Virus record (IMG/VR): IMGVR_UViG_3300048625_000520
Location: 1 to 34,219 of that record
Length of the DNA stretch: 34,219 bases
DNA from: a virus
Strand: one strand, 5' to 3'
Shown here one piece after another: positions 10,050-33,828 of this stretch. Each line of letters opens with the position of its first letter. The stretch's first letter is position 1. A program made the position numbers and the translations under genes. The notes beneath the pieces were generated by a model. The model did not search any database, had not been told where the DNA came from, and saw nothing but the letters and a program-made list of their open reading frames with translations.

Positions 10050-11572
10050 TGTCAAATCGGATCCCTTCTCCCATCCGTTTTGGCCTCATCGACCGGGCCG
10101 TCGCAGCGCTCTCGCCTGAGGCCGCGCTGCGACGGCTGAACGCCAAGGAGGCTATTTTACGCAAGCGGGGCTATAGCGCTGCCACGAAGGGGCGCGGAAC
10201 GGAAGGCTGGCGCAGCTCTGGCAATTCTGCGGACAAAGAAATCGCCGCCGCGGGGCCTATATTGCGCGACCGGATGCGTGATTTGGTGCGCAACAATCCG
10301 ATGGCAGGCCAATCGGTGCAGGTCTTGGTCAACAATATCGTGGGCCCCGGCATTCGCCCGCGCGCGGCGACGCCGGATGCTGAGCTCAACGCCCGCATTG
10401 ACGCGCTTTGGAACACCTGGTCGCGGGTGTGCGATCGGCACGGGCATACGGATTTTCACGGACTTTTGGCGCTGGCGGTGCGCGAAATGATCGAGGGTGG
10501 CGAGGTTTTTGCCGTGGCGCGCCCGACGTCGATGCGTCAGGCAAGCGTCGTGCCGCTGCAGATCGAGTTGCGGGAAGCCGATCATCTCGATGCCAGTCGG
10601 ATGGATCATCGCGAAAACGGCGTGCGCATTGACCAAGGGATCGAATATGACCGCAACGGTCGCAGGCTGGCCTATTGGATGTTTGACGATCATCCTGGCG
10701 GCACGAGTTCGGTTTTCGGCAGCAGGTTTGTGTCGAGCCGACTGCCGGCAGAGCGGGTGGCGCATCTCTTCGAGCGTCAGCGTTTGCAATCGCGCGGTGT
10801 GCCTTGGGGGGCACCTGCCATGCGCCACATCCGCGACCTCGATGATTGGCAGCACGCCGAATTGGTGCGCAAGAAAACCGAGGCTTGTCTGGTCGGCATT
10901 GTCTTTGGGGCCGAGGAAGTCGACCAAGGCATCGCCCCTGCGGTCGAGGATGCGGATGGCAATCGCATTGAGCAGTTTGAGCCGGGCCTAATCGCCTATG
11001 CCCGCAATGGCAAAACCATTGAATTCAACAATCCCTCACATGCCGGCGGCATCAGCGAGTGGTTGCGCGCGCAGCAACATATGATCGCTGCGGGGTTCCG
11101 GGTGCCTTATGCGTTGATGACCGGCGATCTTAGCCAGGCCAATTTCTCATCCTCGCGGGTTGGACTGAATGAGTTTCGCCGCATGGTCGAACAGCTCCAA
11201 TGGCAGACGGTCATTCCGATGCTTTGCGAGCCGATTTGGGCCTGGTTTATCGCCTATGCCCAAGACGCCGGACTTTTGCCACGCGGAGAGACAATTGCGG
11301 CCGAATGGGCCCCACCCAAGTTTGAAAGCGTCAATCCGCTGCAAGATGTTCAGGCTGATCTGTTGGAAGTGCGCTCTGGTTTTAGCACCTTGGCGCAGCA
11401 GATCGCGCGCCGCGGTTATGACCCGGACGAGGTGCTGCAAGAGGCGGCCGCGTTCAACGAAAAACTCGATGCGCTCGGGCTCGTCTTTGATGCCGACCCG
11501 CGCAAAGTGACCAAGTCAGGCCTTGCGCAATCGTCTGACCCAAACAGCACGCAGCCCTCCGAGCAAGGCTGA
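10049..11572 (+). CDS. Portal protein, lambda gpB family
   Basis: A 507-residue protein of the lambda-type portal family (typically about 500-530 residues). Features include IAAAGPILRDRMRDLVRNNP near residue 65 and the family block AGQSVQVLVNNIVGPGIRP, then DFHGLLALAVREMIEGGEVF near 140, and FRVPYALMTGDLSQANFSS with SRVGLNEFRR near 355-375. It forms the dodecameric ring at one vertex through which DNA enters and to which the tail attaches. The gene overlaps gpW (TAATG) and is followed after 10 nt by the capsid gene. Confidence 0.96.
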   Translation: MSNRIPSPIRFGLIDRAVAALSPEAALRRLNAKEAILRKRGYSAATKGRGTEGWRSSGNSADKEIAAAGPILRDRMRDLVRNNPMAGQSVQVLVNNIVGPGIRPRAATPDAELNARIDALWNTWSRVCDRHGHTDFHGLLALAVREMIEGGEVFAVARPTSMRQASVVPLQIELREADHLDASRMDHRENGVRIDQGIEYDRNGRRLAYWMFDDHPGGTSSVFGSRFVSSRLPAERVAHLFERQRLQSRGVPWGAPAMRHIRDLDDWQHAELVRKKTEACLVGIVFGAEEVDQGIAPAVEDADGNRIEQFEPGLIAYARNGKTIEFNNPSHAGGISEWLRAQQHMIAAGFRVPYALMTGDLSQANFSSSRVGLNEFRRMVEQLQWQTVIPMLCEPIWAWFIAYAQDAGLLPRGETIAAEWAPPKFESVNPLQDVQADLLEVRSGFSTLAQQIARRGYDPDEVLQEAAAFNEKLDALGLVFDADPRKVTKSGLAQSSDPNSTQPSEQG

Positions 11573-11582
11573 GGAGACGATC

Positions 11583-13640
11583 ATGCCACAGGATATATTG
11601 AACCTGCCCCTCATCGGGCGGGATGCGGTCGTGCGCGCCGACACCATCGACGAGGCCGCGCGCACGATCGACATCATCTGGACCACAGGCGCGACGGTTC
11701 AACGCGCGCGCTGGGAAGGATGGGACACCCGGATCGAATACGACGAAGAGCTCGCGGTGAATGCGCAGGCAATTCGGCTGGGCCGTTTGAACGATGGCGC
11801 GCCGTTTTTGGATAGCCATGCCACTTGGGGCGGCGTGAGGACGGTTCTGGGATCGGTCGTGCCCGGATCCGTGCGCATCGAAAACGGCCAAGGAACAGCC
11901 AAAATCAGGCTCACGAGTGCGCCAGATGCGGCCCCGGCCATTCACCGCATCCTTGAGCGCACGATCAACAAGGTCTCAGTCGGCTACAGGGTTCATCGCT
12001 ACGAGATCACCAAGCCTGAGAAAGTCGGCCAGCGTGAACAATGGCGCGCCGTCGATTGGGAACCGTTTGAGATTTCCGCGGTCGCAATGCCCGCTGATCC
12101 CGGTGCCAGCATCCGGTCAGAGAACTCTGATCCAGTGCAGCGCACCCCTTGCGTCCTTGTAAGGCGCGACACCCCTGCCGCGGTGGCGGCTTCTGATGAG
12201 GAGGCAAACATGCCTGATAAAGACCAAAATGCGGCCGGTGGTGACAAAACGGCTGCGCGCCACGATGCGCCCCCGCAAGCCCGCGCATCCAACCCCACCC
12301 AGGCGCCTTCCCCCACGCAAGCGCCAAGCGTCGACGCGGAGGCTATTCGCGCCGATGAACGCGCACGCGCCGCAGAAATTGGCGCGCTTTGCGCGCGGCA
12401 TGGGCTTGAGGCGGGGTTTCGCGATCATTTGATCCGGGACGGCGTTTCGCTTGACGAAGCGCGCGCGCAGATCCTTGATAAGTTGGTAGCCACCGATCCG
12501 GCTGGACGCACCGCGGAACCTGCACCTGCCCAGGCCCGCAGCGGTGATGGGCGCGACGACCAATACCGCGATGCCATGACGACGGCGCTGATGCACCGTC
12601 ATAATCCCGCGGCACATCCGTTGAGTGCCGATGCGCGCGACTTCCGTGGGTTGAGCCTGCTGGAGATGGCGCGGCAAGCCCTGGAGCGCGGCGGGGTCTC
12701 GACGCGGGGCATGTCGAAGATGGAGCTGGCAGGTGCCGCGTTTCAGGTGCGCGCGGGCTATCATTCGACCTCTGACTTTCCGGCCATTCTGGCAAATGTT
12801 GCGGGCAAAACCCTACGCGCGAGCTACGACAGCACCCCGCGGACCTTTGGCACCTGGGCGCGGCGCGCGACGATCACGGATTTCAAGCCGGTGCAGCGCA
12901 CTCAGCTTGGCGGCGCACCTGACCTTGAAAAAGTGCTTGAGTCGGGTGAGTTCCAATATGGCACGATCGGCGAGGCCAAGGAGGTCTATGCGCTGGCCAC
13001 CTATGGCCGCATCATCGGCATCACCCGGCAGACCCTGATCAATGACGATCTTGATGCGTTCACGCGCATCCCGGCCGCCTTCGGCGCATCGGCGGCCGAT
13101 CTGGAGAGCGATATCTGCTACGCAATTTTGATGCAAAATCCGGTGATGGCGGACGGAAAGGCGCTGTTTCACGCCGATCATGGCAACCTTGGCACCGCGG
13201 CGGTGATTGGGGAAGCATCGCTGTCAGAGGCCTATCGCAAATTCGCCCTGCAAACCGGCATCGAGGGACGCAAGATCAGCATCTTGCCGCAATACATCAT
13301 TGTTCCACCGGGTCAGCGCTCCGTTGAAGCCCGCAAACAAATCACCGCCACCACTCCGGTCAGCACCGCAGATGTGAACCCCTACGCAGGCCGCATGCAG
13401 GTGATTGAAGAGCCCCGCCTTATCCCCGCCTCGGGACAAGATCCGTGGTTTCTTGCCGCCGACCCTGCGCGGATCGACACGCTGGAATACGCCTATCTTG
13501 ACGGGCAGGAAGGCGTTTTCACCGAAACGCGCATGGGTTTCGAAGTCGACGGTATGGAAATCAAGGCGCGGCACGACTTTGCCGCCAAGGCGATCGACTG
13601 GCGCGGCATGTACAAAAATGCCGGCGCCGCCGCGGCGTGA
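11583..13640 (+). CDS. Prohead protease-major capsid protein fusion
   Basis: A 685-residue polyprotein. Residues 1-180 are an HK97-type (U35/S78) prohead protease: FLDSHATWG with candidate catalytic His79, NKVSVGYRVHRYEI with Ser132, and the characteristic EISAVAMPADPGA at 163-175. Residues about 185-330 are Ala/Gln/Pro-rich and then charged and helical (AEAIRADERARAAEIGALC), fitting a scaffolding or delta domain. From about 370 the major capsid domain follows (SDFPAILANVAGKTLRASYD, FKPVQRTQLGGAPDLEKV, then EYAYLDGQEG near the end). The protease would free itself and the capsid protein during maturation. The start at 11583 follows a GAGGAG site; no separate capsid gene exists. Confidence 0.93.
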   Translation: MPQDILNLPLIGRDAVVRADTIDEAARTIDIIWTTGATVQRARWEGWDTRIEYDEELAVNAQAIRLGRLNDGAPFLDSHATWGGVRTVLGSVVPGSVRIENGQGTAKIRLTSAPDAAPAIHRILERTINKVSVGYRVHRYEITKPEKVGQREQWRAVDWEPFEISAVAMPADPGASIRSENSDPVQRTPCVLVRRDTPAAVAASDEEANMPDKDQNAAGGDKTAARHDAPPQARASNPTQAPSPTQAPSVDAEAIRADERARAAEIGALCARHGLEAGFRDHLIRDGVSLDEARAQILDKLVATDPAGRTAEPAPAQARSGDGRDDQYRDAMTTALMHRHNPAAHPLSADARDFRGLSLLEMARQALERGGVSTRGMSKMELAGAAFQVRAGYHSTSDFPAILANVAGKTLRASYDSTPRTFGTWARRATITDFKPVQRTQLGGAPDLEKVLESGEFQYGTIGEAKEVYALATYGRIIGITRQTLINDDLDAFTRIPAAFGASAADLESDICYAILMQNPVMADGKALFHADHGNLGTAAVIGEASLSEAYRKFALQTGIEGRKISILPQYIIVPPGQRSVEARKQITATTPVSTADVNPYAGRMQVIEEPRLIPASGQDPWFLAADPARIDTLEYAYLDGQEGVFTETRMGFEVDGMEIKARHDFAAKAIDWRGMYKNAGAAAA

Positions 13641-15460: not shown

Positions 15461-16399
15461 ATGGCACGCGCACAAGGCGCGCGGGCGCAACTGGCGCTCG
15501 CCTTTGAGACCACATACGGCATCGCCCCAGCGGCGGGCTATCATAAGATGCCCTTTGCCACCTCTTCGCTTGGGGCTGAACAGCCGCTTTTGAACTCTGA
15601 ATTGCTGGGCTATGGCCGCGATCCGCTGGCCCCGATCAAAGACGCACTGACTGCAGACGGCGATGTTGTGGTTCCGATTGATGCCCAGGCGTTTGGCTAT
15701 TGGCTCAAGGGCGCATTTGGCGAACCAATCTCAACCGGCAGCGGCCCCTACACCCATGAATTCCGATCGGGAGGGTGGACCTTGCCCAGCCTTGCCGTCG
15801 AGGTAGGCATGCCGGAATTGCCACGCTTTGCGATGTATACGGGCTGCGTCGTCGATAAGTTTTCCTTCAGCATGCAGCGCTCTGGCTTGCTGACTGCGAC
15901 GATCAGCATGATCGCCCAAGGTGAAACGCCCGCCAGCGTTACGGCCGCCGGCACGCCCAGCGTCATGGAATTGCTGCGTTTTGGCCATTTCAACGGCGCA
16001 ATCAAGCGCGATGGCGCCGCCCTGGCAAACATCGTCTCAAGCCAGATCACTTATTCAAACACGCTGGACCGGGTGGAAACGATCCGTAGTGATGGCAAGA
16101 TCGACGGCGTCGATCCTGGCATGGCGGCATTGACCGGCAATATCGAGGTGCGCTTTGCCGACACCACGCTGATGAGCCAGGCGATCAACGGGGCGGCCTG
16201 CGCCGTGGAGTTTTCCTATGCTCTTGCTTCGGGGCAAAGCCTCACGATCACGGCGCATTCGGTTTATCTTCCGCGCCCGCGCATTGAAATCGCGGGGCCC
16301 CAGGGCGTGCAGGCAACTTTTGATTGGCAAGCAGCCAAGGACGCAACGCTTGGCCGGATGTGCACGGTCGAGTTGATCAATGATGTGGCGGGATATTGA
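15461..16399 (+). CDS. Major tail tube protein
   Basis: A 312-residue protein of the tail tube type used by lambda-like phages of alphaproteobacteria. It has the start ARAQGARAQLALAFETTYGI, then a conserved-looking GYGRDPLAPIKDALTADGDV, a WLKGAFGEP strand, and a C-terminal HSVYLPRPRIEIAGPQGVQA followed by DWQAAKD. These tubes stack as hexamers around the tape measure to make the flexible tail. An AAGGA ribosome-binding site precedes the ATG, in keeping with high expression. Its stop lies 2 nt before the tail chaperone start. Confidence 0.85.
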   Translation: MARAQGARAQLALAFETTYGIAPAAGYHKMPFATSSLGAEQPLLNSELLGYGRDPLAPIKDALTADGDVVVPIDAQAFGYWLKGAFGEPISTGSGPYTHEFRSGGWTLPSLAVEVGMPELPRFAMYTGCVVDKFSFSMQRSGLLTATISMIAQGETPASVTAAGTPSVMELLRFGHFNGAIKRDGAALANIVSSQITYSNTLDRVETIRSDGKIDGVDPGMAALTGNIEVRFADTTLMSQAINGAACAVEFSYALASGQSLTITAHSVYLPRPRIEIAGPQGVQATFDWQAAKDATLGRMCTVELINDVAGY

Positions 16400-16401
16400 C
16401 C

Positions 16402-16752
16402 ATGCTGAAGCTTGACCTCGCCCAAACCGCGCGCTGGATCGATGTAGCGCCTGGCGTGCGGCTTCACCTGCGCCCACTGACAACCGCCCTTATGGTCGCC
16501 ACACGCAATGACCCTGAGGTGGTGGCACTGGCAAGCGACATGTCTGATGAGGATCGCGCGCTCATCTTTGCAAAAGCGCTGGGCTGCCGCGCCATCCTCG
16601 CCTGGGAAGGTGTCGGGGACGCGGATGGTACGCCCATCGAGGTGAGCCCAGACGGGGTACATGCGCTCCTCGACATCTGGCCCATCTTTGAAGCCTTCCA
16701 GACGTCTTACGTCGCGAAGGCGCTGGTTTTGGAACAGGAAAAAAACGCCTGA
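16402..16752 (+). CDS. Tail assembly chaperone G
   Basis: A 116-residue protein between tail tube and tape measure genes, the place of lambda gpG. It is mostly helical with an N-terminal strand pair (VAPGVRLHLRPLTTALMVA). It should coat the tape measure protein during tail assembly and is not part of the virion. The last codons are GAA AAA AAC GCC TGA, which contain a slippery heptamer; ribosomes that slip make the longer GT form (see that entry). The ATG at 16402 is preferred to the in-frame TTG at 16396, which overlaps the tail tube stop. Confidence 0.85.
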   Translation: MLKLDLAQTARWIDVAPGVRLHLRPLTTALMVATRNDPEVVALASDMSDEDRALIFAKALGCRAILAWEGVGDADGTPIEVSPDGVHALLDIWPIFEAFQTSYVAKALVLEQEKNA

Positions 16753-17069
16753 CCGCCCTCGCCGAATGGCATTTCGGCGGGGGCGATACCTATTGCGCCG
16801 CCTGCACTGGTCGCTGCCCAGAATGTCCATCCCGGATCTATTGGCCTGCCAGCTATGAAGGCGTGCAGATCTGGGACCTGGTCGGCCGCTTGGGCGGCCA
16901 GATGAGGATCTCGGGCAAAACCATCATCGGCTGGGACATGGGTGCGGCAATAGCGATGGCGACGGCATTGGGGATCGATGTCCTGGTTGCTGCAGAGCTC
17001 TTGCCAGAAATCGAGGCCATCATGGTCAGGAAAATCAACGATCGGATTGGGGGGCAGTATGACGACTAA
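16402..17069 (+). CDS. Tail assembly chaperone GT, -1 frameshift product with CxxC zinc-knuckle
   Basis: A slip on A AAA AAC (16740-16746) joins the first 115 residues of G to 107 residues read in the -1 frame (codons from 16746, TAA at 17067-17069), giving about 222 residues. The T part is plainly coding: it opens RLTALAEWHFGGGDTYC and carries CAACTGRCPEC, a compact C-x2-C-x3-C-x2-C zinc-binding pattern, followed by IYWPASYEGVQIWDLV and a helical end. In lambda the T part recruits the tail tube subunits while G coats the tape measure. No ribosome-binding site is seen for a separate T gene, and the frame is open back across the G stop. It overlaps the tape measure start by 11 nt. Confidence 0.85.
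16740..16785 (+). promoter_or_regulatory. Programmed -1 ribosomal frameshift signal
   Basis: The slippery heptamer A AAA AAC lies at 16740-16746 in the zero frame. After a 7-nt spacer (16747-16753, containing the zero-frame TGA at 16750-16752) comes a hairpin with a 13-bp stem: 16754-16766 pairs with 16773-16785 across a 6-nt loop, with twelve Watson-Crick pairs and one U-G. Heptamer, spacer and stem together match the classical bacterial -1 frameshift layout and the known G/GT strategy of tailed phages. Confidence 0.88.
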
Positions 17070-19536
17070 GCGTGTTTTTGTACGGCTCGCGGCCGTTGGG
17101 GGAAAACAAGTTAAAGCTGAGCTCGAGGGTATCGGGGAGGCAGGCAACCGCGGCTTGGGGCGGCTTTCGCGCGAGGTGGAACTTGCCAATGCCAGGTTGT
17201 CAGGCTTTGCGCGAAAGGCTGGGATTGCCGCGGGGGCGATGGCCTCGGCAATGGTTGCTGCAGGAGCCGCGATCACCGCGGCAACCGTCCGGTCGGCCAA
17301 TGAAATCACCTATCTTGCCCAGGTCTCAAACGCGACGCCGCAAGCCTTGCAGCGCTGGGCGGCTGGGGCAAAAACCGTTGGGATCGAGCAAGAAAAGCTG
17401 GCCGATATCCTGAAGGACGTGAACGATCGGGTTGGTGATTTCATCCAGACCGGCGGCGGGCCGATGAAGGACTTCTTTGAAAACATCGCCCCCCGCGTGG
17501 GGGTCACCGCCGATCAGTTCGCACAGCTTTCCGGCCCGGAGGCCCTGCAACTCTATGTCAGTTCGCTGGAAAAAGCAGGCGTCAGCCAGCAGGACATGAC
17601 GTTCTACATGGAGGCAATGGCCTCTGATGCCACGCTTCTACTGCCCCTTTTGCGCAACAATGGCGCGGCCATGCAGGCTCTGGGAGATCGCGCCGAAGGA
17701 CTTGGGGCGGTGTTGGACCAAAAAGCGATTGCGGCGATGCGGCGAACACATGTTGCATTGATTGGCGTTGAGCAGGTGTTCGAGGGCATGCGCAACCAGA
17801 TTGCCACGGCCCTAGCGCCTTCAATTGAAGCGCTGGCAAATAGTTTCGTGGCAGCCGCCTCCACCGGAGGTGTTATCAATCGCGCCTTATCGCTGGTGCT
17901 CGGCAACATGGAACGGCTCGCGACTTATGCGGGCACATTTGTGGCGTTCATGGCTGGGCGCTGGGTGGTGGGCTTGGCCGCAGCGGCACTTTCAGTGCAA
18001 GGCCTGGCCACGGCCTTCGTCATCTTGCGGGCGGCTTTGATCCGTACGGGGATCGGCGCCTTGAGCGTGGGCGCAGGCGAGCTGGCCTACCAATTCTCAA
18101 AACTGGTCGAGGGCGCTGGTGGTTTTGGTGCCGCCTTCGCCCTTTTGAAAGATGCTGCCGGTGAGGCTTGGAACCGCATATCATCGGCAGCCTCCGCCGC
18201 CTGGTCGCGGATCGAGGCGGGATGGGCATCAGCACAAGCCGTCATTTATGAGGGGTTGCAAGGCGCCACGGTTGCGGTGGTCGACTGGGGCAATAGCGCG
18301 GTTGGCATCTTCCAAGGAGCATTTGATGCGGTGAAGGCCATTTGGGGAGCCCTACCACAAGCCATCGGCGACTTTGCCTATCAAGCGGCAAACGGCTTGA
18401 TTGATGGCGTAGAGTCGATGCTGAACGCCGTTGTCACCCGGATCAACACCTTCATCGAGGGCCTTAATGCAGCGCTTGCCCTCCTGCCAGAATGGGCAAC
18501 CGGGGAAGGCGGGATCAGTATCGGGTCTTTACAGGCGGTTAATCTCGGCGGGATCGACAATCCATTCCAAGGGGCCGCAGCAGAGGCTGGCGCAGCCGCG
18601 GGAAAAGCCTTCAACGACGCCTTGGGGAAAACCTACGTCGAGTCCCCGAACCTCTTTGGGGGTATGGCCGCGGAGGCGCGATCCCGATCCGGCGCATATG
18701 ATGAGGCTGCCGGAATGCTATCAGATGCGGCATCGCGCCCACTAACCGCCTGGGAAGCGCTGAAGGTCGCCATGACGGGGGCAGGCGCGACCGGTGAAGA
18801 GGCGCTTGCCAATGCCAGCGATGCGGCGACCAATTTGGCGAATGGCCTTAATACGGCAGGAGCGGCGGCCAAGGGCGCAGGTGCAAAGACCAAAGCCGCG
18901 GCTGAAGAGGCCAAAGCCGGTTGGGCAGCTGTTGCACAGACATTGGCAGATTACAGCAAGGAGGCGATGAACTGGGGCAAAGGCCTTGGCAGCACCCTGG
19001 TCAATGCCTTCAATTCGGCCGAAAGCGCCTTTCGGCAGTTCGTAGCCACGGGCAAGTTTGACTTTAAGTCGCTGGTCTCATCGATGCTGGCCGATCTTGC
19101 GGTGCTATCTTTCAAGCGCGCCGTTCTCGGGCCGATTGCGAACGCGTTGTCGCTGTTTATGGGGCCCGCCCCAGGCAGCACGGCCAGTATTTTGCACGCA
19201 GGCGGCCTTGTCGGGGCGGGCGGGCCCAGTCGCGCGGCCCCAACCTTGGCCTTTGCAGATGCGCCACGCATGCATGCCGGCGGTTGGGCCGGACTGAAAC
19301 CTGATGAGGTACCTGCCATCTTGCAACGGGGCGAGCGGGTGCTTTCACGCCGTCAGGTCGCACAGGGGGATGGCACCAAGGGGGCACCCGGCGTAAGCAT
19401 TTCGATCGATGCGCGGGGAGCGCAGATGGGCGTAGCAGAGCAAATTGATGCAAAGTTGCGCGCCGCCATCCCACAAATCGAGCGCATTGCAAAACAGGCC
19501 GTCGCAGATGGGCGGCGCCGAGGTCATGCTGTATGA
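17059..19536 (+). CDS. Tail tape measure protein
   Basis: An 825-residue, Ala/Gly-rich helical protein right after the G/GT genes, close in length to lambda gpH (853). The N-terminus is basic and coiled coil (TKRVFVRLAAVGGKQVKAEL). Residues about 55-78 (AGIAAGAMASAMVAAGAAIT) and parts of 290-340 are hydrophobic. The C-terminal region (FVATGKFDFKSLVSSMLADL, then MHAGGWAGLKPDEVPAILQR) is typical of the family; GERVLSRRQV is its usual ending motif. It sets tail length and is ejected with the DNA. At about 1.5 angstrom per residue a tail near 120 nm is expected. The ATG at 17059 is preceded by a G-rich ribosome-binding site within the T frame. Confidence 0.95.
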   Translation: MTTKRVFVRLAAVGGKQVKAELEGIGEAGNRGLGRLSREVELANARLSGFARKAGIAAGAMASAMVAAGAAITAATVRSANEITYLAQVSNATPQALQRWAAGAKTVGIEQEKLADILKDVNDRVGDFIQTGGGPMKDFFENIAPRVGVTADQFAQLSGPEALQLYVSSLEKAGVSQQDMTFYMEAMASDATLLLPLLRNNGAAMQALGDRAEGLGAVLDQKAIAAMRRTHVALIGVEQVFEGMRNQIATALAPSIEALANSFVAAASTGGVINRALSLVLGNMERLATYAGTFVAFMAGRWVVGLAAAALSVQGLATAFVILRAALIRTGIGALSVGAGELAYQFSKLVEGAGGFGAAFALLKDAAGEAWNRISSAASAAWSRIEAGWASAQAVIYEGLQGATVAVVDWGNSAVGIFQGAFDAVKAIWGALPQAIGDFAYQAANGLIDGVESMLNAVVTRINTFIEGLNAALALLPEWATGEGGISIGSLQAVNLGGIDNPFQGAAAEAGAAAGKAFNDALGKTYVESPNLFGGMAAEARSRSGAYDEAAGMLSDAASRPLTAWEALKVAMTGAGATGEEALANASDAATNLANGLNTAGAAAKGAGAKTKAAAEEAKAGWAAVAQTLADYSKEAMNWGKGLGSTLVNAFNSAESAFRQFVATGKFDFKSLVSSMLADLAVLSFKRAVLGPIANALSLFMGPAPGSTASILHAGGLVGAGGPSRAAPTLAFADAPRMHAGGWAGLKPDEVPAILQRGERVLSRRQVAQGDGTKGAPGVSISIDARGAQMGVAEQIDAKLRAAIPQIERIAKQAVADGRRRGHAV

Positions 19537-26716: not shown

Positions 26717-27615
26717 TCGAGACCGGACTTTATGCCATCACCAATTGCGGCGTGCCGCGCCATTACGCGGTCGATGTCAAACCAGACTATGTCTCGATAG
26801 CCGTCTTCGAGTTCGCAGCACCCGGCACGGCAACTGGCATGGGCGGGGTCATGCTCTGGGCCGATCTGCGGGCGCATCTCGAGGCGCGGCCGGCCTTTGG
26901 CAATCAGGCCGGTTTTGTCGACCTCGTTCATAACGAATGCTTTGTGCCGGATCTTCCTGACGCGCCGATGGGGGCGATTTACAAGGGCCGCTCCTGCCTC
27001 GTTGCCGGTGGCATGCGCGGACATGACGAGTTGGTCGATCATGCCCTGATCGACATGGCTGTCTGCTCCGACGGGCGACCGCTCTCTTGGCGGAACCGCT
27101 TTGCACGATCTGCGCGGGAGAAGATCGACACCTCGTTCCGGTACCGGGCACGCGAAGGCATCTCGAATGCGCTCGTCGTCTTTCTGCCGGTGGTGGTGCC
27201 CTTCGATCATGCCCGGATCGAGGTTCTCTGTCAGATCCCGCCGATCCTTCTGAACGGCACAGTGCAAGCAGGCACGGTCGACGATGCGACGATCCCGAAG
27301 GACGGGCTCTGGTACAAGCAGTTCTACTTCCACGCCTTGGGCCCAGAGGCGGCAACCGTGCCAGCCGGTGGGCGAGTGGATGTGCCGGTCGCGCTCAGAT
27401 GGAACGCGGACGGCTCCGCCTTTGCCCATGCCGTCGCGCTGAAGCTCGAGAGTGATGCGGGCTATCTGCCGAAGCGCCGCCTCCTCACTTCTGCTGATGG
27501 CACGGGCAGCTTTGCCATCGAGGCCCATGGGCTCGCCTCGGGCGACCGCATCACCGTCAAACTCAACACCGAGCATTACACTGCGATCGGCAAGATCGTG
27601 TTGGAGGTCATCTGA
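26713..27615 (+). CDS. Unknown protein at the head of the modification cassette
   Basis: A 300-residue protein that I do not recognise. The first 70 residues (DYVSIAVFEFAAPGTATGMG) and the last 80 (VPAGGRVDVPVALRWNADGS, then SFAIEAHGLASGDRITVKLN) look like beta domains, the latter resembling an Ig-like or structural-tail domain. Between them are an Asp/Arg-rich stretch and a hydrophobic strand (NALVVFLPVVVPFDHARIEV). No signal peptide and no catalytic motif are seen. An AAGGA site precedes the start, which lies within the stop of the S74 fibre gene. It may be a virion protein that carries or receives the modification. Confidence 0.6.
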   Translation: MIETGLYAITNCGVPRHYAVDVKPDYVSIAVFEFAAPGTATGMGGVMLWADLRAHLEARPAFGNQAGFVDLVHNECFVPDLPDAPMGAIYKGRSCLVAGGMRGHDELVDHALIDMAVCSDGRPLSWRNRFARSAREKIDTSFRYRAREGISNALVVFLPVVVPFDHARIEVLCQIPPILLNGTVQAGTVDDATIPKDGLWYKQFYFHALGPEAATVPAGGRVDVPVALRWNADGSAFAHAVALKLESDAGYLPKRRLLTSADGTGSFAIEAHGLASGDRITVKLNTEHYTAIGKIVLEVI

Positions 27616-28355
27616 TGCAAATCCCCACCACGAGTGACTTGCAGCTGATCTATCCAAGCTTCGTGCTGCACAAGCACTGGCAGATGCCTGAGGGCTTCAA
27701 TGACCGCCTTTACGCGCTGGCGGCTGAGGATGCCGCGGCCCATCGCATCCAGAATGCGGGGGATGGCCGCAATGTCGGCGATACGACCAATCATCTCGGG
27801 CATCTGCGGCATAACTTCCTGATGGACCGGCAGGACCCGGCCCTCGCGGTACTGGCGCAAATGGTCGCGGCCGGCGTGCGGGAATATCTGCAGCTGGCCT
27901 ATGGCTATGACCATACCGGCGACATCGCCATGATGTCGGACACCTTCTGGCAGCGCCGTGCCGCCCGCGAAAATGTCGGCATCAACACCCACACCCATAT
28001 CCAGAGCGACATCGTCTGCACCTATTACCCGCGGGTGGTGCTGGATGCCGATTGTCCGGACACCTCGCTTCATCGCGGGGCGGTGCGGTTTTATGATCCG
28101 GCCAATGTCGGCAAGCGGCTTTGGCCCTGTCGCAACCCGGACGCCTACACTGGCGGTTGGTATGCGGTCGAGCCCAAGGCGGGGTCGATGCTGGTCTTCG
28201 AGGGGCATCTTCCCCACGACAGCACGTTCTTCGCGGGGGAGGAGCGGATGTGCATTCCGGTCCTCTGTTCGCTCACCCTTCCGAATTCCCATTGCAAGGC
28301 AGGGCTCGCCGAGATCCTGGCTCATCAGGCGCAAGGAGGCAGCCATGGCCTATAA
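27615..28355 (+). CDS. Putative 2OG-Fe(II) oxygenase (TIGR02466-like)
   Basis: A 246-residue protein that fits the putative 2OG-Fe(II) oxygenase family related to TIGR02466. The metal site is suggested by NTHTHIQSDIVCTYYPRV (H126/H128 and D132), with the distal His in MLVFEGHLPHDSTFFAGEE (H198 or H201) and R211 in ERMCIPVLC as the usual 2-oxoglutarate-binding Arg. Members hydroxylate or otherwise oxidise substrates using O2 and 2-oxoglutarate; substrates are mostly unknown. It overlaps the gene before by one base (TGATG) and the small Cys-tail gene after it by 11 nt, so stoichiometric co-expression is likely. The substrate is inferred from context to be a tail protein. Confidence 0.8.
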   Translation: MQIPTTSDLQLIYPSFVLHKHWQMPEGFNDRLYALAAEDAAAHRIQNAGDGRNVGDTTNHLGHLRHNFLMDRQDPALAVLAQMVAAGVREYLQLAYGYDHTGDIAMMSDTFWQRRAARENVGINTHTHIQSDIVCTYYPRVVLDADCPDTSLHRGAVRFYDPANVGKRLWPCRNPDAYTGGWYAVEPKAGSMLVFEGHLPHDSTFFAGEERMCIPVLCSLTLPNSHCKAGLAEILAHQAQGGSHGL

Positions 28356-28659
28356 GGTTGGAACCACCATCGTGATCGATGACACGGGCTTCGTGGATTG
28401 GGCGCGTATCGCCAACAAGCCGGTCATCGGCACGGGGGATGTCAGCGAAGTGGCCGTCGTAAATGGGGTGCCGACTTCTGGCGCTACGGGAGTTGCGACG
28501 GGGGCGGTTTACGGGTCTGGCGGCGTCAACAGCGGGTTTGGCGGCACTACAACCTACAATTGCTATGTCGAAAGCCTGTCGGGCGGCGGGACTGGGGCCA
28601 CCGTCACGATCACCGCCAATCGCAAGAGCTTCAACTGCAACTGCGCCTGCCGGTGCTGA
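28345..28659 (+). CDS. Small fibre-like protein with CxCxCxC tail, candidate modified substrate
   Basis: A 104-residue protein with a strong ribosome-binding site (AAGGAGG, 6 nt before the ATG). The N-terminus (AYKVGTTIVIDDTGFVDWAR) resembles short tail-fibre proteins of alphaproteobacterial phages. The middle (residues 42-89) is Gly/Thr/Ser-rich and beta-like. The C-terminus NRKSFNCNCACRC carries Cys98, 100, 102 and 104 in alternating positions, with Asn, Ala and Arg between; one further Cys is at 73. It lies between two oxygenase genes and ahead of a SPASM radical SAM gene. A Cys-rich C-terminal core after a longer leader-like part is the layout of a RiPP precursor. It could instead be a metal-binding tip protein. 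Confidence 0.72.
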   Translation: MAYKVGTTIVIDDTGFVDWARIANKPVIGTGDVSEVAVVNGVPTSGATGVATGAVYGSGGVNSGFGGTTTYNCYVESLSGGGTGATVTITANRKSFNCNCACRC

Positions 28660-28661
28660 AA

Positions 28662-29288
28662 ATGGAGGTTCGCAGCACGCGCCTGGAGCTCTGGCCGACC
28701 CGGGTCAGTTTTTTTGAAACGCCGGTGGACTGGCCGGTGAACCGGCAGTTGGCTGACGAGGCCATCGCCGCGGTGGGGAGCGGGGGCGCGCGGCTTTCGG
28801 CAGCCGAGCGGCGGGTGCGGGGCATCCTTGAGAGGAGCGCGGCTGGCCAGTCCCTGAAATCCCATCTCTTTGCCTGTGCGCGGGCCGTGCTTGGTCCCTG
28901 GGCGCCCTATCTCGATCCCCACCATTGTGAAAACCGCGCCTTGGTTATCCAGCGCGGTGGCTTCATCTCCACCCACAAGGACAGCCGCGAGGGGGATCTC
29001 ACTTGCGTGCACTTCCTGACCGGTGGCGGGGTGGGGCAGCCGGTGAACTCTGTGGGCACCCTGCGCTTTGTGATCGAGGATCCGTCGCGGTATTTTGATG
29101 AGGGACGGCTGCCCTACGAGAGCCGCCATGGCTTCTCGATCAATCCGCGTCCGGGGCTCTCGATCTTCTTTCCCTCTCATATTCCGCACAACCAGCACCC
29201 CTATGAGGGGAGCACCCCCCATGTGCAGGTGGTCGCGAACTTCCGCGTCAATCTGCCTGTGGCGATCGAAGAAAGGCTATTTGACTGA
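28662..29288 (+). CDS. Second 2OG-Fe(II) oxygenase-type protein
   Basis: A 208-residue protein with a 2OG-Fe(II) oxygenase-like pattern: QRGGFISTHKDSREGDLTCV, giving His105 and Asp107 (the H-x-D pair), and LSIFFPSHIPHNQHPYEGS with the distal His (173 or 176), followed by VQVVANFRVN in the position of the 2OG-binding strand. It is not closely similar to the oxygenase at 27615-28355, so the two probably act on different positions or substrates. ATG 28662 (GTG 28653 is possible) lies 2 nt after the stop of the Cys-tail protein, and its own stop overlaps the radical SAM start. Confidence 0.72.
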   Translation: MEVRSTRLELWPTRVSFFETPVDWPVNRQLADEAIAAVGSGGARLSAAERRVRGILERSAAGQSLKSHLFACARAVLGPWAPYLDPHHCENRALVIQRGGFISTHKDSREGDLTCVHFLTGGGVGQPVNSVGTLRFVIEDPSRYFDEGRLPYESRHGFSINPRPGLSIFFPSHIPHNQHPYEGSTPHVQVVANFRVNLPVAIEERLFD

Positions 29289-30628
29289 TGTGGTTCGATT
29301 TGACCCTGGAAGCGCGGGATGGCAGCCGCCATTCCGTCCGCTACAACCCGCACAGCTCGGACTGCGAGGGGCTGCCGCTGTCCGTGGAACCTAGTGTCTT
29401 TGCACCGGTTCCGCGGGTGGCCAAAGACAAGCCCCTCGGCAAATCCCGCGCACCCCGTATCCTGAAAATCCAACTCGGGCTCTCGTGCAATTATGCCTGC
29501 AGCTATTGCAGCCAGGCCTTCCAGATTGCGGATGCCACGGTCTCGAAGCTGGCGGATGTCGAGCACTTCCTGACCCAGCTTGACGGCTGGATAGCCGACG
29601 CCCCGGAAAAGATCGAGCTCTGGGGCGGGGAGCCCTTCCTCTACTGGGCCAAGATCAAACGGTTGGTGCCGGCGCTGGCGGGGCGGTTCCCCAAAGCGGC
29701 CTTCTCCATCATCACCAACGGATCACTGCTCGACCGCGAGAAGCTCGACTTCATTACCGCGCATGACATCGCGATCACGATCTCCCATGACGGGCCTGGC
29801 CAGCATCTGCGCGGGCCGGATCCGCTTGATGATCCGGATAAGCGACGCTGGATTGAATCCTTGCTGGCCGAGCGACCGGACAAGACCGGGTTTAACGCGG
29901 TGCTGACGCGCGCGCATCACGATCTTCGGGCGCTGAAGGCCTGGTTTGCCGAAAAGGTCGGGCCGGATATCGTCGTCGGGCTTGAGGGAGTGGTGAATGT
30001 CTATGATGCGGCGACGGCGCTTGGGACGGGGCGGTTTGAGCCCTTCGAACTGAACAGCCTGACGCGGTCGATCTTCGAGGCGCTGGTAGAGGACCCGAAC
30101 GCCTTTGGCCTCGGGGAGCGCATCGACGAATTCTACGCCTCGATCCAGCGCCGGCGGCCCATTGAGGCCCTTGGCCAGAAATGCGGGATGGATCGCGAAG
30201 ATAGCATTGCCGTTGACCTGCGCGGCAATGTCATGACCTGTCAGAACACCGGCGCCAAGGGCGTGCACAAGATTGGGCATATCGCGGACTTCGAGGCCAT
30301 CGCACTCGACACCGCGACGCATTTTGCCTTCCGGCCCGAGTGCATGTCCTGCCCCGTCGTTCAGCTCTGCAAGGGGTCCTGCATGTTCCTTGAAGGCGAG
30401 TTCTTCAAGCAGAGTTGCGCCAACGAGTTTGCCTTCAATATGGGGGTCATGATGGCGGCAATTTTCCACCTAACCGGCGCAGTGTTAGTCGGCGTGGCGA
30501 CCGTCGCACTCAAAGCGGAACCCATCAATATAGACAAGAAAGGGGCAGGTCATGGTGCCGGACTGGGAAACGATACAGGCGGTATGGCCGCTGCTTCTGG
30601 GGTTGGCGGGGCTTTGGGGGAGGCTTGA
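29288..30628 (+). CDS. Radical SAM/SPASM domain maturase
   Basis: A 446-residue enzyme. The radical SAM motif is CNYACSYC (C67, C71, C74), followed by the SAM-binding LWGGEPFLY (111-119) and IITNGSLLD. The C-terminal part has a complete SPASM domain for auxiliary Fe-S clusters: C299-x13-G-x4-C318, then C352-x2-C355-x5-C361-x3-C365 and C377. Such enzymes (for example AlbA, PqqE, QhpD) install thioether or C-C crosslinks or other radical changes in ribosomal peptides and proteins. It overlaps the second oxygenase gene by one base. The last 25 codons overlap the next gene by 77 nt and read Gly/Ala-rich, unlike the body; the C-terminus may have been extended at a recombination joint. Confidence 0.9.
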   Translation: MWFDLTLEARDGSRHSVRYNPHSSDCEGLPLSVEPSVFAPVPRVAKDKPLGKSRAPRILKIQLGLSCNYACSYCSQAFQIADATVSKLADVEHFLTQLDGWIADAPEKIELWGGEPFLYWAKIKRLVPALAGRFPKAAFSIITNGSLLDREKLDFITAHDIAITISHDGPGQHLRGPDPLDDPDKRRWIESLLAERPDKTGFNAVLTRAHHDLRALKAWFAEKVGPDIVVGLEGVVNVYDAATALGTGRFEPFELNSLTRSIFEALVEDPNAFGLGERIDEFYASIQRRRPIEALGQKCGMDREDSIAVDLRGNVMTCQNTGAKGVHKIGHIADFEAIALDTATHFAFRPECMSCPVVQLCKGSCMFLEGEFFKQSCANEFAFNMGVMMAAIFHLTGAVLVGVATVALKAEPINIDKKGAGHGAGLGNDTGGMAAASGVGGALGEA

Positions 30629-32429: not shown

Positions 32430-32984
32430 CTACCTTAGGTAACCCCAGCCAACTTGGGTTTCGCGGTTATAGTATTGAAGGGGTGTGTTCAGATTCCCAC
32501 TGTTAACTGTGAACTGACCGATTGCATCAAGGATGGCGTCCTTCTTGAAGGGAATGTGTATCGCTTTGGCGGTGGAGGCATCTATCCGCGCTGCAAGCAC
32601 TGTAGGCCATCTTGACCGCAATAGCCCCGGGTTCAGAATTGCATCGTATCCCGGGTATGCGATAATCAAGGGCAATTTATAGTAGTCAACGGCCATCTCA
32701 ATCTCATACGATAGAAGGCTTCCGCTCTTCCGTGTATCGTCGGAAAGGATCACAACCATGTTCTTTGATGCTGCAAGACGCTCGCGGATGCTTCTTTTAA
32801 GAGTTTCAATGGTGCTCGAGTCGCGAACGGCGCTTGCCTTTTCGTGACTGTTGACGAATTTGAATTCGACACCCCGATTGGCGTCCCATCCCTGAACGGT
32901 CGCATAATATTTGAAATCCGATTGCGTAGGATCCGCCTGTCCAAGGCCATCAAATGCGAAATAGGTTCCGGTTCTATTAGCCAT
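32430..32984 (-). CDS. thsB: Thoeris ThsB-like TIR-domain protein
   Basis: A 184-residue protein of the MTH538/DUF1863 TIR-like fold used by Thoeris ThsB. The first strand is GTYFAFDG, followed by WDANRGVEFKFVNSHEK. The middle has NMVVILSDDTRKSGSLLSYE, then IEMAVDYYKLPLIIAYPGYD; E94 or E96 is the candidate catalytic Glu for NAD+ cleavage. ThsB proteins sense infection and make a nucleotide signal from NAD+; in type II Thoeris the signal is His-ADPR. ATG 32984 overlaps the ThsA stop by 8 nt, so the two genes are coupled. The frame extends 7 codons further upstream. It runs opposite to the phage late genes and is A+T-richer. Confidence 0.85.
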   Translation of the reverse strand: MANRTGTYFAFDGLGQADPTQSDFKYYATVQGWDANRGVEFKFVNSHEKASAVRDSSTIETLKRSIRERLAASKNMVVILSDDTRKSGSLLSYEIEMAVDYYKLPLIIAYPGYDAILNPGLLRSRWPTVLAARIDASTAKAIHIPFKKDAILDAIGQFTVNSGNLNTPLQYYNRETQVGWGYLR

Positions 32985-33828
32985 GTGCGTTCCAGCCCCT
33001 CTCATAGTGCTTAAGATTTATTTCGCCTTCTTTTTCTGCTGGTAAGATGATGGTGATCTTGCCAGTAATTTTTCCTAGCCTACTTTCCTCGTGGATCGCC
33101 GCAAGGATCAGATCAACCAGCACAGAAGTCTTTATTCCTATACGCGCTAGGCCCGAACCCATAAGCGGGATCGTGAGTGACTCGTATGAACACTTCGCGC
33201 GCGCCTTCTGTAGAAGACCGCGCACCGCACAGATCAAGCTTTCCGCGCTTGCCGTGGTCACATTGTTGGAACTGTCGGTTCGCCCAAGTGCGACGAAAAG
33301 GAACTTTTGGTTCGCTGTGACGGCGCTAGCTGTGGTGCCAATGGGGTATCGCTTTGTGTTGCCCTTGATTCGACCTTCTTTCTCGAAAGTCGCGTCATTC
33401 AGCGAAGCGTTGACCTGCTTTTGCCAATCCTCTCGGTTATCTGGCCAAAACCGCTTTATTGTCACTCCGTGCAGTGACTTGGATGAAACCAAATCCTCAT
33501 CGACATAGCTATCGAAGAAGTCATTGGTTGCGACTGCTTTCCAGCCGTCCTTGGAGAACAGATCGCCAAACTCAACGAAGATTTTCGTATCAAAACCGTG
33601 ATTCTTTATTTCAATCCGCTTCTTCAGAAAGCCAGTCAAAAAATGTCCATCAACAACGTAGAAGGCAATGGCCAAGGCAGCGGCGAATGCGAGAAAGCAA
33701 CCAAATGGGAAAGTGACATTTCCATCCGATATTGCTTCGTAGGATTCGATTGGCAGAAAAATTGCTCCAAGGGCGGACAGGAAAGACCTGAGAACAGGCA
33801 ATATGTGTGACGTGAGGTCTTTCCACAT
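32977..33828 (-). CDS. thsA: Type II Thoeris ThsA-like effector: membrane-anchored macro-domain protein
   Basis: A 283-residue protein with two N-terminal membrane segments (about 13-30 and 41-60, FPFGCFLAFAAALAIAFYVV) and a cytoplasmic macro-type domain (about 80-270, DUF6430/ThsA-macro). Domain blocks include TKIFVEFGDLFS, then LFVALGRTDSSNNVTTASAE, and the ligand-loop-like IPLMGSGLARIGIKTSVL. In type II Thoeris this membrane-macro protein binds the TIR-made signal and damages the membrane, stopping the infection. It lacks the SIR2-SLOG layout of type I ThsA. A GGAGACG ribosome-binding site precedes the ATG. It is the first gene of a two-gene leftward unit at the right end of the prophage. 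Confidence 0.83.
   Translation of the reverse strand: MWKDLTSHILPVLRSFLSALGAIFLPIESYEAISDGNVTFPFGCFLAFAAALAIAFYVVDGHFLTGFLKKRIEIKNHGFDTKIFVEFGDLFSKDGWKAVATNDFFDSYVDEDLVSSKSLHGVTIKRFWPDNREDWQKQVNASLNDATFEKEGRIKGNTKRYPIGTTASAVTANQKFLFVALGRTDSSNNVTTASAESLICAVRGLLQKARAKCSYESLTIPLMGSGLARIGIKTSVLVDLILAAIHEESRLGKITGKITIILPAEKEGEINLKHYERGWNAHG

Follow-up and report, generated by a model that had tools for sequence, protein, structure and literature searches.

A predicted programmed −1 ribosomal frameshift of the lambda G/GT type in a siphophage tail chaperone locus, with DUF7697 as its putative T half

The analyzed DNA (the window, 34,219 nucleotides of the IMG/VR virus record IMGVR_UViG_3300048625_000520) very probably carries a programmed −1 ribosomal frameshift, by which a siphophage would make lambda-like G and GT tail assembly chaperones. 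A frameshift of the tail chaperone had been proposed in a sequence-only reading of the window, and the proposal was supported by the gene order, the protein families, the phase of the heptamer, the downstream stem, the absence of a usable T start and more than 100 relatives. The frameshift is of a known kind, that of lambda G/GT, and is well supported, and in its Rhodobacter phage relatives the two frames are already annotated as joined. The additions made here are modest and consist of the placement of DUF7697 as the putative T half and of three relatives in which an extra A gives a single-frame fusion.

Table 1. Features of the tail chaperone junction and its neighbours in the window.
Feature	Position	Strand	Basis
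Tail tube protein gene (upstream neighbour)	15461-16399	+	Pfam Phage_tube_2, E 5e-61
Frame-0 tail assembly chaperone (G-like), 116 aa	16402-16752	+	PHROG_313, E 2e-14
Slippery heptamer A_AAA_AAC	16740-16746	+	Read from the sequence; conserved in relatives
−1 frame extension (T-like), 107 aa + stop	16746-17069	+	Pfam PF24752, E 5e-23
7-nt spacer holding the frame-0 stop TGA (16750-16752)	16747-16753	+	Sequence
Stimulatory hairpin (arms 16754-16766 / 16773-16785)	16754-16785	+	Pairing, folding, synonymous resampling
Tape-measure gene, overlapping the T-frame end	17059-19536	+	Tape_meas_lam_C, E 1e-16; phrog_8462, E 8.5e-103

The locus has the anatomy of a siphophage morphogenesis module, in which tail tube, chaperone and tape measure follow each other in this order (Table 1) and the chaperone is placed between the other two genes, as in G/GT-type pairs. 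The succession of tail tube gene, PHROG_313 chaperone, DUF7697 frame and tape-measure gene corresponds to the arrangement around lambda G/GT. Elsewhere in the window, prohead protease and major capsid domains were found within one ORF (11523-13640). The region between the tail-fibre genes and the lysis genes held cargo that is unusual in a siphophage (27615-30628), namely a putative 2OG-Fe(II) oxygenase at 27615-28355 and a radical SAM protein at 29288-30628; the product encoded between them (28398-29288) had no Pfam match and is, as a guess from its sequence, a possible second oxygenase. The end of the virus record carries a Thoeris defence locus of two genes on the minus strand (32430-33828; ThsB TIR-like, E 1e-63; ThsA Macro, E 4.5e-49).

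The 3′ end of the chaperone gene reads ...CAG GAA AAA AAC GCC TGA, with a run of seven A's (16739-16745) followed by a C. The A_AAA_AAC proposed at the end of G was exact to the base, and its codons, GAA AAA AAC, are in phase with the chaperone gene for a −1 slip; the proposed 7-nt spacer was also present, with the frame-0 stop inside it. The −1 frame is free of stops from 16692 to 17069, and the 107 open codons claimed for it could be followed to the TAA at 17067-17069. No ATG, GTG or TTG occurs in the T frame before the GTG at 16863. The T frame is open, overlaps the chaperone gene in −1 and is without an efficient start of its own, which is the arrangement of G/GT-type genes.

The C-terminal half of the T protein (residues 57-103) is covered by PF24752 (DUF7697) with a score of 81.3 bits against a Pfam gathering score of 27, and the −1 frame also matches phrog_11212. 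Searches of Rfam and of NCBIfam gave no family match. Positions 16794-16826 encode CAACTGRCPEC, the CxxC-x3-CxxC motif that had been noted in the −1 frame. Its four cysteines were kept without exception in the 131 T proteins aligned, and the spacing between the Cys pairs was variable in sphingomonad and related loci; the motif is a putative zinc-binding knuckle. On sequence grounds, DUF7697, listed as a family of unknown function, is identified as the putative frameshift-encoded T half of the tail chaperone, which the family model would represent in shortened form. No mention of DUF7697 was found in the literature searched.

Separate translation of the −1 frame, by re-initiation at a CTG (16749) or from the GTG at 16863 or a later start, was considered extremely unlikely. 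In the window the CTG overlaps the stop and has an AGGA about nine bases upstream, and some records annotate internal T-frame starts. However, the CTG is not conserved, most relatives having CTC or CTT at that codon; initiation at 16863 or further downstream would drop the invariant knuckle; and separate translation leaves the in-phase heptamer unexplained.

Conservation of the junction was analyzed in two samples of relatives. The T-protein search gave 80 viral and 21 genomic loci, which keep the A-run and nearly all of which keep the stem; this sample is biased towards the junction, as the search peptide EWHFGGGD overlies the stem. For this reason a second search was performed with the profile of DUF7697, a domain located over 50 codons further downstream, on 695 genomes of three alphaproteobacterial groups and five genomes with earlier loci. 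This resulted in at least 60 DUF7697 loci, 59 of them genuine; one match (L164) was false, being below the cut-off and in a frame that reads as another protein. An in-phase slippery heptamer was present in all 59 genuine loci among the matches listed, where it lies within the chaperone overlap and 56-83 codons ahead of DUF7697; elsewhere in the same genes, in-phase heptamers occurred at 11 of 16,474 codon positions. A search for relatives that retain both frames but lack the heptamer found no such case among the fetched loci that need the shift. A chance or decayed arrangement, in which adjacent frames carry a fortuitous heptamer and hairpin, has next to no probability: the window does contain dozens of slippery-looking heptamers, counted in any phase, but the heptamer is kept in all of the 59 independently found loci and in the 101 T-protein loci, and this conservation already refutes such a reading.

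The heptamer varied among the relatives. A_AAA_AAG replaces A_AAA_AAC in locus L008, Rhodobacter phage RcKemmy has G_GGA_AAC, some relatives have A_AAA_AAT or G_GGA_AAA, and the Nostoc phage, with a run of eight A's, reads A_AAA_AAA there without a change of phase. L002, the relative closest to the window at 93% identity, differs from it at few positions. Avoidance of A_AAA_AAG due to a host tRNA-Lys(CUU) was examined as a possible reason for the preference and rejected as a general one. The tRNA was present in four of the five hosts first checked (confirmed by ARAGORN), and matches in a set of ten hosts, which are from a pattern search only, numbered six; as the pattern occurred in only six of the ten, the heptamer preference is not explained in general.

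The claimed 13-bp hairpin, with twelve canonical pairs and one U-G, could be read directly from the window and has a loop of 6 nt. The fold of 16740-16800 has a free energy of −28.2 kcal/mol (z −3.5), which was equalled by none of 200 dinucleotide shuffles. In resampling with synonymous codons drawn by local usage, the window stem had a z of −4.6. The stem also beat resampling over 117 distinct loci, which share ancestry and whose counts are non-independent events, with a mean z of −2.7 and with the observed stem among the best 5% of resamples at 79% of the loci. Since the observed stem is stronger than that of resampled codons, it exceeds what the protein alone requires. Within the stem, the first Ala codon ends in C or T at each of the 66 distinct junctions and never in G, although GCG makes up ∼43% of Ala codons in these genes; the Leu codon was always CTC or CTT (65 of 65), with CTG at ∼49% in the same genes.

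A conserved structure 3′ of the slip site was thus found, as in G/GT-type genes. Loss of the stem in relatives, which the sequence-only reading had named, together with loss of the heptamer in close relatives that retain both frames, as evidence against a frameshift, was confined to a weakening in a few distant loci, and the stem was mostly kept; it was no better than synonymous resampling in L101, L102, L152, L159 and L160. In most of the 66 distinct junctions, 12-13 of the pairs are retained. Covariation is thin because each pair-keeping change among these close junctions alters one side of a pair only, as in C-G to U-G or A-U to G-U, and none of the 66 shows a double change. A two-sided change was seen in RcKemmy, where U-A replaces C-G at pair 7; the wobble at pair 6 is there turned into U-A. 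In L150 and L151 a stem forms from the same 5′ arm and a shifted 3′ arm.

Three relatives (L004:2656-3333; L015:2656-3351, the same locus as L087; and L147:1498-2160, minus strand) have eight A's and carry chaperone and T in one ORF; a prophage of Chelatococcus sambhunathii DSM 18167 holds one such A8 locus. In these loci the upstream homology falls in the T frame and the fusion is directly encoded; the extra A may reflect either a homopolymer sequencing error or a natural loss of the frameshift. The model of the L004 fusion, built with separate rows for G and T, had a mean pLDDT of 92.8, and a predicted helix (residues 93-134) passes through the joint. Matches to the predicted fold came from predicted tail assembly chaperones of viruses, with 5.9e-7 as the best E, and included that of Acinetobacter phage Loki; no match to the fold was found in the PDB, and the PDB sequence search gave no meaningful match.

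Such runs also bear on transcriptional slippage, in which RNA polymerase would stutter on the seven A's and gain or lose an A, leaving some mRNAs with a single frame. The A7C run is present, and gain of one A would yield the fusion encoded in the three A8 relatives. However, a conserved downstream stem at fixed spacing is expected of ribosomal slippage, and relatives with G_GGA_AAC or G_GGA_AAA have no long homopolymer and are still slippery and in phase; transcriptional slippage therefore appears very unlikely, and the programmed −1 ribosomal frameshift is the preferred explanation. With rather low probability, DUF7697 may be essentially only a frameshift-encoded chaperone half, its 52-residue model having been truncated by gene callers, while some lineages may in addition have swapped the frameshift for the one-extra-A fusion; with both halves in a single frame, the short G form would then have to arise by opposite slippage or by transcriptional stuttering.

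The heptamer of phage lambda is G_GGA_AAG, whereas the window has A_AAA_AAC, followed directly by a strong stem of 13 bp, and a T half with Cys4 and DUF7697. The position before the tape-measure gene, the −1 slip towards the end of G and the extension into the T frame are shared with lambda G/GT (Levin 1993; Xu 2004, 2013, 2014, as summarised in PMC5009743). The Rhodobacter phages of cluster RcC (RcKemmy gp15/gp16, RcKai) share the T family (48-50% identical) and the gene order, and RcKemmy differs from the window in its heptamer and in other bases of the stem. Rapala et al. (2021; PMC8601537) describe this frameshift as a usual feature of genes for tail chaperones. In Acinetobacter phage Loki (gp12/gp13), a −1 frameshift was proposed at AAAAAAC beside the G stop (PMC5313236); Loki shares this motif and a similar predicted fold with the window, but has a different host group and is absent among the T-protein sequence relatives in the phage search. 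The haloarchaeal virus HCTV-2 has a g-t frameshift at A_AAA_AAC (PMC5009743) and an archaeal host, and it shares this heptamer with the window. The consensus heptamers of conserved frameshifts in prokaryotes include A_AAA_AAC, and one tail chaperone cluster gave 6-7% frameshifting in tests (PMC3711429).

The expectation that automated annotation would miss the fusion held for Nostoc phage Nsp-JY21 and Synechococcus phage Sc-Yong805-1, which are annotated with two genes, and failed for the Rhodobacter phages, as the GenBank records of RcKemmy and RcKai have the two frames joined. The junctions of Nsp-JY21 (L104) and Sc-Yong805-1 (L105) are the same, with different recorded cyanobacterial hosts, and one of the two has a tyrosine recombinase label on the gene that occupies the tail tube position; the recorded host or the annotation may be in error.

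By the proposed mechanism, most ribosomes would stop at the frame-0 TGA and make the 116-aa G protein. A minority would be held by the hairpin while AAA occupies the P site and AAC the A site; these ribosomes would move back by one base on A_AAA_AAC and read the −1 frame to 17069. The product would be a 222-aa GT fusion with the predicted joint peptide ...EQEKNRLTALAEWHFGGG..., whose T half contains the Cys4 knuckle and DUF7697. If the fusion works as its lambda counterpart does, its G half would coat the tape-measure protein, and recruitment of the tail tube subunit would fall to the T half. In E. coli, A_AAA_AAC is a weak site compared with A_AAA_AAG (PMC5009743), and the efficiency of the frameshift may therefore be low.

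DUF7697 is common in alphaproteobacterial phages, and annotations should join its frame to that of the chaperone. The relatives also provide a natural series of heptamers (A_AAA_AAC, A_AAA_AAG, A_AAA_AAT, G_GGA_AAA and G_GGA_AAC) over a conserved stem, with which the slippery codons could be gauged outside E. coli.
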